Positions 954 to 10,330 of a stretch of DNA of 20,590 nt are shown here, in pieces. The notes under the pieces were generated by a model. It searched no databases and was not told the DNA's origin. It saw nothing but the letters and a program-made list of their open reading frames with translations. The stretch is taken from positions 1 to 20,590 of IMG/VR virus record IMGVR_UViG_3300018079_000042. One strand, given 5' to 3'. The DNA is from a virus. The position numbers and the translations under genes were made by a program. How positions within the stretch are numbered: the stretch's first letter is position 1; the number at the start of each line of letters is the position of its first letter.

Positions 954-2144
954 TTATATCTCATAATTCCGCCATGAGTCAGGCCTATAAATGATCAACC
1001 GATGCTTGGCGCGTGTGACCGCCACGTACCAGACACGATGTTCTTCTTGATCTGAGACCTGCCACATATGATCATGACTTAGTCTTGGCATTGCCGTATT
1101 TAGGACCACCGTGTTGGCCTCACGTCCCTTAGCCTGATGAATCGTCATCATCCCATCAAGTGGCCTTGTCTTCAGGAACTTAAGTGGCGCAAGCATCTCA
1201 TTTAACTGGGTACGCCCACGTGCAAGGACCATCGTGTTAGGGTCATGGAACATATCCTCAGTTAACCGAAATGCGATCTCCACATTCTGCCCCATCATAA
1301 GTCGAGGGATGAAGACCTTTTCCTGCCGTCTACTTACACGTGAGATTATCTTGTCAGCCACCTCCTTTACCTGAGCCGTCAGCCGGTGGCTATTGCCCAA
1401 GATCTTATGCTCGTCAACCTTCCGATCTAAGAATACCTCGGACGACGCGCCTGCCCAGTTGAAAATGGCTTGGTCATCGTCTCCTGCCATATACACCATC
1501 TCGCACTGTTGCGACATCTTATCGACGACCTTCCATTGTAACTTAGACAGATCCTGCGCCTCATCGATGATCATCCGCTTTATTGGAAGCGGGTGACCGA
1601 AGTTCAGATATAAGAATAATAGATCAGTAAAGTCAGACAACCCCTGCACATTCTTCCATTCCCTGAATGCCCTGATGAATGAGTCGGCCGCCGACTGAGG
1701 GATCTCAATTGGTAATACCTCATTCAGGTCTAACATCTTATGTCGTGCAAGGTGATAGGCCTGTAGGATCTTATCCCACTGGTTCCTTGATCTGGTAAAT
1801 GTAAACTCGTTGTCCATCAATGGGTCTAATGTCAGGCCAGTGTTTAGGTTTACCCCTGCCGACTTACCAAATTCCTTTAATTCCTTGGGACCCATCACAT
1901 TCACCCCACGTAGCTCTGAGTAGCACATCGCGTGAATTGTCTTCAAACGCGGAAAGTTGTTATGATGCTTATACCGTGAATCCTGCCTAACTCGATCTTC
2001 CACCTCCTTGCGTGCGGCACGTGTAAAGGTCATGAATGCAATCTCATCGATTGGTACCTCCTTTAGCCACGAAGAGAGGGTAGTGATCATCGTGGTTGTC
2101 TTGCCAGTCCCCGGTGGCCCGAATAACTTAAAGCTCCAAGGCAT
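954..2144 (-). CDS. Compact UvrD/Rep-like superfamily 1A DNA helicase
   Basis: Start chosen at ATG 2144 (396 residues) because AGAGGAG lies 5 nt upstream; an ATG at 2183 adds 13 residues but has no such site. SF1A motifs are visible in order: Walker A GPPGTGKT (9-16), motif Ia MTFTRAARKE (about 38-47), motif Ib TIHAMCY (about 69-75), Walker B IIDEAQD (192-198), motif III GDDDQAIFNWAGA (221-233), motif V TIHQAKGREAN (334-344) and motif VI YVAVTRAKHRL (about 373-383). The family unwinds DNA 3' to 5' using ATP. Cellular UvrD/Rep are about 670-720 residues, so this is a stripped form with short 1B/2B insertions, as in many phages. The start overlaps the end of the primase gene by 17 bp, which suggests translational coupling and joint action at a fork or in repair. 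It ends with TAA. Confidence 0.93.
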   Translation of the reverse strand: MPWSFKLFGPPGTGKTTTMITTLSSWLKEVPIDEIAFMTFTRAARKEVEDRVRQDSRYKHHNNFPRLKTIHAMCYSELRGVNVMGPKELKEFGKSAGVNLNTGLTLDPLMDNEFTFTRSRNQWDKILQAYHLARHKMLDLNEVLPIEIPQSAADSFIRAFREWKNVQGLSDFTDLLFLYLNFGHPLPIKRMIIDEAQDLSKLQWKVVDKMSQQCEMVYMAGDDDQAIFNWAGASSEVFLDRKVDEHKILGNSHRLTAQVKEVADKIISRVSRRQEKVFIPRLMMGQNVEIAFRLTEDMFHDPNTMVLARGRTQLNEMLAPLKFLKTRPLDGMMTIHQAKGREANTVVLNTAMPRLSHDHMWQVSDQEEHRVWYVAVTRAKHRLIIYRPDSWRNYEI

Positions 2145-3618
2145 CTGACTCCTCTTCTTTTCGCAGACCGTAGAATTCATCATACTTGATCGCCCATAGC
2201 AAGACCAACTTACCGTCTATTGAGACCCGTCTGTAGGCACAACCATGATTTCTTATCAGCATGAAGACTCGGTTATCTGCGATCCTATCCAGCTTATGCA
2301 TCGCTAGGTATTTCCTCAGAGAGTTTGCCCTGAATACGATGTATTCACCCTTCTTGACTGGAAGATCACGAAAGACGTCAATGTCCTGTTTAGACTTTTC
2401 ACACAGTTCTAAGAACTCCGTGACACAGTTAAGGATTTGACCGTTTATTGAGGCATCCTTAGGTGCACCGATCTCAGTCCGCTTATCAAGTAAGTCCTTG
2501 ACTTGCTTCTCCCAATCAAGTTGCTTCAATGGCTTGACCACGAGATTCATGATCTCCATCAGGCGCAGGCGAAACACCCTGAAGTTTAAGAACTCCTCAC
2601 TTGAGAGCGAGATGTCTTTACCGTTAACCTCCAACATAAAGTATGGTGGGTCTGTATTTAGCTTTCTGCAATGTGTGATCGTCGCCGGGTGGTAGATGCT
2701 CTCCAATTCTTTACCCGGGAAATTCGAGATCCCAAACTTAAGCTTTGCGCATGCGTCATAGTCACAATGACTACAGATCGGCTCGGTGTCACAGGTGTAT
2801 TGATATGTTGTCTTATTCAATGAACGAACAACGGTGTTAAGCTCTTTGTATGGCAGTGGTGGAGACACGTTCCTAAGATTATGCTCCATTAACTGGGACT
2901 CCCAGTCCTTTGGGTTTGACTTCTTAAAGAAGACACCAAAGTTAAACAGGCCAGAATTCCTGGATCCTTCAGGTAGACCAAGTTTGGTTAATGCCCTTAG
3001 ACATGGTGGGTACTCCTTTAATGCCTCATCGTCATCAATGGCCCCGGCTTCCTGCACCTTAAATGCTGGCAGGTTATCTACAGCTTCAAAGAACTCTTCT
3101 AATGAGAGCGGTCGCTCTGAGTTAACGGCATATCTTATCGTCTGCTCAGCGTTATGATATGGGAGATTGATCCAGTTACCTATGACGTCGGGTGTGATCT
3201 TAACTTGCTTTGGAAAGATCTCGGACTTGGTGTACCCGAGCTTAGTCGCCCATGCCTTCATCTGTGTCTTGACGATGGCTGCTTGGGTTGGTTCCTTAAA
3301 GAACACAAATAGGTGCGCACCTCCAGATTTTGTCTTACAGACAATGAGTGGTAGTTTGTTGTCTGCTACCCGCTTTGCAAGGGTCAGATGATTCAGGTCG
3401 TAGACGTCTATATCAATGGCCGCAAACAGACAGGTCCCATCTTCTTGGATTGGGATGATGCCTAGACCAAGCTTACCTTCAAGGTGGTCCTTGTAGTGTT
3501 GAGGAGTCACGGGGCGTGATATTGTCTTTGCCCCGTGCTCATCACTCCAAATTCCGTATGCCGACGCCCGACCGGTGAACAACTCGCTAAATCTCACCAG
3601 TTGATTCGGGGTCATCAT
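2128..3618 (-). CDS. Archaeo-eukaryotic primase (AEP) with PriL-like cysteine domain and C-terminal region
   Basis: 496 residues. AEP catalytic motifs are clear: motif I AAIDIDVYD (D69, D71; metal binding), motif II KSGGAHLFVF (S98, H102; nucleotide binding) and motif III GNWINLPYH (147-155). The metal-binding DxD and the SxxxH pattern are as in PrimPol and TOTE-type primases. Residues 204-292 carry PPC (C206), a conserved RN, PPL, then YTC (C276), C282, C285 and C290. This resembles the C-terminal domain of the large primase subunit PriL, whose four cysteines hold a [4Fe-4S] cluster, so metal binding is likely. Residues 300-480 match in style the C-terminal region of other phage AEP primases, with a final winged-helix-like segment. 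It probably makes primers (or DNA) for phage replication. It overlaps the preceding gene by 32 bp and the helicase gene by 17 bp. Two adjacent ATGs begin it; either could be used. Confidence 0.9.
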   Translation of the reverse strand: MMTPNQLVRFSELFTGRASAYGIWSDEHGAKTISRPVTPQHYKDHLEGKLGLGIIPIQEDGTCLFAAIDIDVYDLNHLTLAKRVADNKLPLIVCKTKSGGAHLFVFFKEPTQAAIVKTQMKAWATKLGYTKSEIFPKQVKITPDVIGNWINLPYHNAEQTIRYAVNSERPLSLEEFFEAVDNLPAFKVQEAGAIDDDEALKEYPPCLRALTKLGLPEGSRNSGLFNFGVFFKKSNPKDWESQLMEHNLRNVSPPLPYKELNTVVRSLNKTTYQYTCDTEPICSHCDYDACAKLKFGISNFPGKELESIYHPATITHCRKLNTDPPYFMLEVNGKDISLSSEEFLNFRVFRLRLMEIMNLVVKPLKQLDWEKQVKDLLDKRTEIGAPKDASINGQILNCVTEFLELCEKSKQDIDVFRDLPVKKGEYIVFRANSLRKYLAMHKLDRIADNRVFMLIRNHGCAYRRVSIDGKLVLLWAIKYDEFYGLRKEEESDALEL

Positions 3619-4132
3619 CAGCGTGTACCTTGAGTGCCTCGCGATTCATGGATTCGTAGAAGGATGTGACCTGTTGAAACATCTGATCATCCAACCAGCC
3701 CTTCGACTCCAACTTGTAGTTGAAGAACTGTTGACCAGCCCCGATGTCATCAATCGGGGTTACATGAACCATCGCAGCATACAAGGGTGCATTACGCATC
3801 CTCACCATGGTGTTGAAGTTTCGAGCCACCTTTGTGCTGGCGCTCTTGAAGCTCATGGCAATCAGTTCTGAGGTTAGCTTACCGTCTCGGACGATCAATG
3901 ACGGGTAGCTGTAGATGAGGTAGCAGGCGGGAGGTTCGTCATCTTGGAACTGTGAATGCGGGCAGGCGGCGCAGGTCTCACACAATCGACCACCATCAAT
4001 CGCGTTGAACGACTGACATTCAATACCGCCGCCCTCCGCGATTGGTTTGAATTTGATGCGGGTCTTAATCATGTACAACGGGATGAGATCAATTGCGTCG
4101 TCATAGACCTCACCTGAGAGTGTATTGAACAT
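3587..4132 (-). CDS. Cysteine-rich phage protein, downstream part of a frame broken by an amber codon
   Basis: This is the 181-codon stretch from the first ATG (4132) after an in-frame TAG at 4198-4196. The same frame continues upstream to a well-placed start at 4369 (see 4196-4369), so the intact protein would be 260 residues. Visible here are a cysteine cluster (ECQSFN, LCETCAACPHS, PPACY; six cysteines within about 36 residues) that suggests metal binding, then IGAGQQFFNYKLESKGW. I believe this is the type of protein often encoded beside phage primases and recombination functions, with PRL-x-SP at the N-terminus, CxSxxG and a CxxCP cluster. I cannot give it a proven activity; single-strand DNA binding is a guess. 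GAGGGG lies just upstream of ATG 4132, so a shortened product could be made. It ends in TAG, 32 bp inside the primase gene. Confidence 0.75.
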   Translation of the reverse strand: MFNTLSGEVYDDAIDLIPLYMIKTRIKFKPIAEGGGIECQSFNAIDGGRLCETCAACPHSQFQDDEPPACYLIYSYPSLIVRDGKLTSELIAMSFKSASTKVARNFNTMVRMRNAPLYAAMVHVTPIDDIGAGQQFFNYKLESKGWLDDQMFQQVTSFYESMNREALKVHADDDPESTGEI

Positions 4133-4195
4133 CTGCCCCTCAAGTAGATCTTGGATGAACTTCGGGTCTTGTTTTTTCCGCTGCGGGCTATTGGA

Positions 4196-4369
4196 CTAAC
4201 AGATGGCCAGGCGTGGCACCGTAAAGTCCTGGTTGTCTGCCTCCTCAAGACCTGTGGAACCTGCTGGGATGTAGGACGGCCGGCTCATCAATGCCCCGCC
4301 CTTCTGATCTACCAAGGCCTTGGACGGCCTGGGTGCTTCCTTCTTCTTTGGATCTTCCTTCTTTGCCAT
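4196..4369 (-). CDS. N-terminal 57 codons of the amber-split cysteine-rich gene
   Basis: ATG at 4369 has an excellent site (AAGGAGAGACC immediately upstream). It begins MAKKEDPKKKEAPRPSKALV and ends FTVPRLAIC followed by TAG (4198-4196). Reading on past the TAG in the same frame gives SNSPQRKKQDPKFIQDLLEG and then the 3587-4132 protein without further interruption. The run PRLAIC-stop-SNSP looks like the P-R-L-x-x-x-Q-x-x-SP segment of the related phage proteins I recall, so a single C-to-T change in a CAG glutamine codon would explain the stop. Alternatives are programmed readthrough, amber suppression by a tRNA, or a base error in the assembly. The presence of the stop is certain; its meaning is not. 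Confidence 0.7.
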   Translation of the reverse strand: MAKKEDPKKKEAPRPSKALVDQKGGALMSRPSYIPAGSTGLEEADNQDFTVPRLAIC

Positions 4370-4379
4370 GGTCTCTCCT

Positions 4380-4661
4380 TTAGATTTTTGTGTAACCTTC
4401 CTCGAATGCTTTGGCTGGCGAAAAAGATTTATAACCGTCGGCGTAAACTACGTAGTAACCGCCAACTTCAGGGCGATGACGACACATGTATTCAAAGTCG
4501 ACACGCACAGGCTCAAACCCAAGATCGGCTATAGTCAATAACCGACTTCCGTCATCTTCTTGTGCAGGCTGAATGGTCGGGTATGTAATGATCCCAGCAA
4601 TTTTCAGGGCCATTACTTCTTTATGGCACCTGTATCTTGGCATAGGCATCTCTTTTGCCAT
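4380..4661 (-). CDS. Small conserved-type phage protein of unknown function
   Basis: 93 residues from ATG 4661, with AAGGAGAGACC immediately before it, the same leader as the next gene at 4369. It begins MAKEMPMPRYRCHKEVMALK and ends with an aromatic segment (GGYYVVYADGYKSF, then SPAKAFEEGYTKI). Small proteins with a YRxHKxVxALKI start and a GGYYVxYxDGYxSxSPAxAFxxGY end are, as I recall them, widespread among phages without known function. The fold may be a small alpha/beta domain. It sits 10 bp before the amber-split gene. It ends in TAA and no membrane segment is visible. Confidence 0.85.
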   Translation of the reverse strand: MAKEMPMPRYRCHKEVMALKIAGIITYPTIQPAQEDDGSRLLTIADLGFEPVRVDFEYMCRHRPEVGGYYVVYADGYKSFSPAKAFEEGYTKI

Positions 4662-4729
4662 GGTCTCTCCTTTATTTTATCGCTGATGGCCAGCTTTGTG
4701 ACGGAGGTCGATACGGGAACCACAAGAAG

Positions 4730-4822
4730 CTATTGCGGGCGCTCCAGTCCGTAAACCAAGACGCCGCTCCCTATCCATCCCATGACACAACCGACAACTA
4801 ACACGGCAGACAGAGGTCCCAT
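4730..4822 (-). CDS. Candidate 30-residue membrane peptide in the 4662-4917 gap
   Basis: The 256 bp between the genes at 4661 and 4918 hold no convincing gene. The best candidate is MGPLSAVLVVGCVMGWIGSG followed by VLVYGLERPQ, a single hydrophobic helix with a charged end, read from ATG 4822 to TAG 4730. It has no clear ribosome-binding site. A competing 68-codon frame (4883 to 4677) has an Arg/Cys/Ser composition that does not look like a folded protein. Either may be chance. Confidence 0.25.
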   Translation of the reverse strand: MGPLSAVLVVGCVMGWIGSGVLVYGLERPQ

Positions 4823-4917
4823 CAGGACATGACCACAAACCCCGCTCGGTCGCACTCTCCAACTCGTATCTGGCTAATCGCATCTCTAGCGCTCAGCACG
4901 CCATCAGCAAATCATCA

Positions 4918-10222: not shown

Positions 10223-10330
10223 CTACTCAACATTCCTTGTCCAGTGCTTATACAGCCTCATGATCACGTCCGCGACCAGCAACCACAGCACGATCTCCAC
10301 GATCCACCCGAGCCCCCACAGATGCCACAT
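10223..10330 (-). CDS. 35-residue single-pass membrane peptide
   Basis: ATG at 10330 has an ideal site (AAGGAGGAATC). The peptide MWHLWGLGWIVEIVLWLLVA continues DVIMRLYKHWTRNVE and ends in TAG at 10225-10223. Residues 3-24 form one hydrophobic helix, with positive charge only after it, which predicts an N-out/C-in membrane protein. It lies between two genes, and its stop is within the ribosome-binding region of the 10208 gene. Small early membrane peptides of phages often act on host envelope or exclusion functions, but that is only a suggestion. Confidence 0.68.
   Translation of the reverse strand: MWHLWGLGWIVEIVLWLLVADVIMRLYKHWTRNVE

Follow-up and report, generated by a model that had tools for sequence, protein, structure and literature searches.

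The window, by which we mean the whole stretch of DNA that was analysed, is a 20,590-base IMG/VR virus record and represents a phage fragment, in which terminase, portal, helicase and primase genes are present. A gene on its minus strand carries an in-frame TAG, and translation of the frame has shown that this codon is its sole interruption (Table 1). The start codon is preceded by a strong Shine-Dalgarno sequence (AAAGGAGAGACC ATG) with an anti-SD pairing of -8.7 kcal/mol. Translation and pairing energy hence agree with the initial annotation, which had described a 260-codon frame with a strong ribosome-binding site and a single TAG at codon 58. The interruption of this frame is more than a chance occurrence, since the 202 codons downstream of it stay open and constrained.

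Table 1. Positions of the features of the interrupted gene in the window
Feature	Position	Strand	Remark
Interrupted gene, Pam3_Gp34 family (PF23977 / PHROG_2402)	3587..4369	-	260 codons; probable OB-fold replication-associated protein
In-frame TAG, codon 58	4196..4198	-	Gln in this column in 92 of 94 homologues
Shine-Dalgarno region, AAGGAGAGA	4372..4380	-	Sequence and anti-SD pairing
Internal ATG, codon 80	4130..4132	-	Possible restart giving 181 aa; GAGGGG just upstream
Gene's own terminator TAG	3587..3589	-	Kept in 3 of 3 relatives

Relatives of the window and the neighbouring genes

Nothing similar to the window at the DNA level was found in the annotated phage collection, and the collections searched may leave out the window itself and near-identical records. 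The close relatives are three IMG/VR contigs, namely G001 (51.5 kb, with a 127-bp terminal repeat that marks it as complete), G002 (47 kb) and G003 (22 kb); the blocks which they share with the window are mostly of 77-87% DNA identity, and the Pam3_Gp34-family protein is of 92-94% identity. No frameshift or internal stop was found in the core of the other genes shared with these relatives. An in-frame stop close to the beginning of the homologues of the gene at 954-2183 was considered and rejected, as it falls in the 5' extension of the ORF, outside the gene core. A search for a related prophage or host, in which genome contigs were queried with the portal protein, gave no relative, and the Rfam scan of the window gave zero matches.

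Two regions adjoining the gene were also noted. About 535 bases directly upstream of it (window 4381-4914), with an extra ORF at 4380-4661 (PHROG_11049), are missing in all three relatives. An identical 21-nt module consisting of the ribosome site plus start is present at 4362-4382 and 4654-4674, and recombination at this repeated module may be the source of the difference in the upstream segment. On the other side, the neighbouring primase-like gene (window 2128-3618) matched PHROG_21866 and a TOTE-type archaeo-eukaryotic primase domain (PF22548, E 1.9e-16).

Family, predicted fold and conservation of codon 58

With the TAG read as Gln, the translated frame matched the PF23977 (Pam3_Gp34) family over residues 36-246 with an E value of 2.3e-36 and 126 bits against a cut-off of 27, and matched PHROG_2402 with an E value of 8.5e-34 as compared to 5.8e-16 for the downstream 181-aa ORF alone. 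Therefore, both halves belong to one gene, and the proposal that the sequence on the two sides of the TAG fits one protein type holds. Under the standard code, an intact frame across the Pam3_Gp34 domain is absent due to the TAG at codon 58, and the window gene is an interrupted copy of a gene of this family; an unbroken frame is required of a working member, while descent from the family does not depend on it. On reading through codon 58 the gene shares with the family the full-length match and the motif P-R-L-x3-Q-x2-S, and it differs in carrying an in-frame TAG. In the named relatives, the family gene is placed in the replication region, close to genes for helicase, SSB and DNA polymerase.

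The AlphaFold2 model, for which 45 sequences from the window and IMG/VR were used as input, has a pLDDT of 69.9 and a pTM of 0.68, and its confident strands and helices lie mostly between residues 53 and 244. No significant match to the model was obtained by Foldseek against the PDB, and the PDB sequence search with the family gave no solved relative. In a second structural comparison the top match was a phiC31 RDF fusion (Z 7.5), and the next matches were mostly OB-fold proteins, such as the BRCA2 OB region (Z 6.4), RB69 gp32 (5.6), T4 gp32 (5.4) and SSBs (about 4). As none of the structural matches reaches Z 8, an OB fold is likely, not proven. The model suggests a likely resemblance to the OB fold of phage ssDNA-binding proteins, and the gene product is probably an OB-fold replication protein with putative DNA binding. 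A zinc-site-like Cys/His cluster is present at residues 118-149 (C118, C130, C133, C136, H138 and C149; CX2CX2CPH...C), which the window shares with the three close relatives and which was seen in none of the 11 named distant homologues. A zinc site is likewise known from T4 gp32.

Conservation at codon 58 was analysed in an alignment of 94 sequences, comprising the three close relatives, 11 named phages (whose hosts include Alteromonas, Burkholderia, Vibrio, Acinetobacter, Stenotrophomonas, Salmonella, Xanthomonas, Aeromonas and Pseudomonas) and 80 IMG/VR homologues. The gene is intact in all three close relatives, with CAA (Gln) at this codon; Gln occupies the column in 14 of 14 close and named distant homologues and, with the IMG/VR members included, in 92 of 94. 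The two remaining homologues, L103 and L106, have Ser and look like one lineage. The column is among the most conserved ones along with G40, E42, P52, S61, G78 and N82, and an internal stop was seen in none of the 83 IMG/VR homologues. Three of these (L041, L053 and L104) had at first been flagged as disrupted and were found to be intact, the match having overrun the natural start or stop. The full alignment of 15 homologues showed too much diversity for use as a scan query; a degenerate scan of the collection for a TAG at the CQSNSPQRK motif gave nothing apart from a single match in contig L008, which encodes other proteins, has no DNA similarity to the window and was rejected as a chance match.

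A change of CAG to TAG at an expected glutamine had been put forward in the initial annotation. The glutamine part is upheld by the alignment, while the relatives carry CAA rather than CAG, so two base differences separate the TAG from their codon. The direct precursor of TAG at this position was probably CAG.

Decoding of the TAG codon

The possibility that TAG is reassigned to Gln (genetic code 15), as is the case for certain crAss-like and Lak phages, was suggested by the nature of the lost residue, and it is refuted by the composition of the window. The 27 window genes terminate with TAG in 7 cases, TAA in 13 and TGA in 7, and among their 5,882 codons the TAG at codon 58 is the only in-frame stop; the coding fraction under table 11 is 84%. 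Moreover, the terminal TAG of the interrupted gene is conserved in 4 of 4 phages, and a suppressor tRNA was found neither in the window nor in the relatives. The earlier argument against a general reassignment, based on the many genes ending at TAG, is hence sound; the TAG-ending genes listed for it hold with the exception of the one at 10223, which is merely a 35-codon ORF. Recoding of TAG to Gln in phages has been proved by metaproteomics (PMC9523058), and the code 15 phages have many in-frame TAGs, short genes and a low coding capacity under table 11, with a Sup-CTA tRNA in 52% of them (PMC11210395). The window gene resembles these phages (PMC9523058, PMC11210395) in having TAG where Gln is expected. 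Whereas their genes are fragmented under table 11 by many in-frame TAGs and often accompanied by a Sup-CTA tRNA, the window has one in-frame TAG and normal gene lengths, and uses TAG as a terminator.

Suppression without reassignment would require an amber suppressor tRNA, encoded by the host or the phage, which inserts Gln and makes the gene a natural conditional mutant. Replacement of a near-invariant Gln by TAG with constraint persisting downstream would fit this explanation, and hosts with a natural suppressor could in principle exist. However, the tRNA gene search, which covered the 20.6-kb window fragment and the three relatives including the complete G001, found none, hence no tRNA with a CUA anticodon; further, suppression would be needed by one gene only while seven genes end in TAG. 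Suppressor-dependent expression, raised earlier as an option, has gained no positive evidence and is very unlikely.

The frame being open on either side of the TAG could also be read as programmed readthrough giving two products from one gene. Against this, the TAG is conserved in 0 of the 83 IMG/VR homologues, the local RNA fold is no stronger than that of shuffled sequences (z 0.35), and the 57-residue product would be without nearly all of the fold. As the TAG recurs in no relative and neither a structured element nor a tRNA was found, this further option of the initial annotation is hardly credible.

Translation may alternatively restart at the ATG of codon 80 (4132), 66 bases downstream of a real TAG, giving 181 residues with most of the OB barrel and partial function. 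GAGGGG lies 3 bases before this ATG with an anti-SD pairing of -7.2 kcal/mol, as compared to -8.7 for the true start, the window has ATG at codon 80 in place of the TTG or TTA of the relatives, and many of the SSB-type OB-fold structural matches begin near residue 72-81. On the other hand, 10 of the 93 homologues have Met in this column, which makes the change of Leu to Met unremarkable. A predicted hairpin holds the Shine-Dalgarno sequence of the restart, and the product would lack seven near-invariant residues (G40, E42, D48, P52, Q58, S61 and G78). Initiation at codon 80 is seen in no aligned homologue; homologues starting at the internal methionine would have spoken against an interrupted gene, and in each of the three close homologues the upstream ATG is the start and codon 80 encodes Leu. 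A restart is thus improbable, though less so than suppression.

Age and probable origin of the stop

Comparison of the window with its relatives gave dN/dS values of 0.04-0.06 before the stop and 0.034-0.037 after it; among the relatives themselves the value after the stop position is similar, at 0-0.054. Only 7 amino-acid changes after the stop are specific to the window, on a branch with a dS of about 0.5, which bounds unconstrained evolution to about 6% of this branch (upper 95% bound) on the assumption that all 7 changes arose without constraint. From the low dN/dS and this bound, the stop should be recent, an error, or somehow read through. A nonsense allele in a gene so constrained should be purged; therefore, if real, it is very young or rescued.

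An isolated recent nonsense change of a Gln codon to TAG, being either a real allele in the phage population or a consensus or assembly error of the metagenomic contig, is the explanation we prefer, with a probability of about 87%. The Gln codon 58 would have changed recently in an otherwise normal gene of the phage replication region, and the source may be a true allele of the sampled population or an error of the metagenomic consensus or assembly. As TAG is read as an ordinary stop, the main product would be a 57-residue peptide from which nearly all of the predicted fold is missing, and this truncated product has presumably lost its function. Intact relatives with Gln and the constraint past the stop support the nonsense mutation and the assembly or strain variant, both of which had been among the options offered at the outset. 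A lineage that keeps an amber at a near-invariant Gln of an ssDNA-binding-type protein, made only in suppressor hosts, or that has split the gene via the new Met80, is improbable.

Spontaneous amber mutations in phage replication genes are represented by the classical T4-type amber mutants, to which the window is similar in the single change of Gln to TAG type and in affecting a gene on which DNA replication likely depends, and from which it differs in coming from a metagenomic contig. The evidence does not call for a new mechanism, and the case has the appearance of a common nonsense mutation or an error of the consensus.

As it stands, one nonsense difference, found in a single phage contig from a metagenome, is of little importance. 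It carries a warning for annotation, as gene callers may report a 181-aa protein from Met80, which would be a truncated form of a conserved replication-region protein. Should the amber prove to be fixed, as judged from reads and host data, it would represent a naturally occurring host-conditional allele of the phage.
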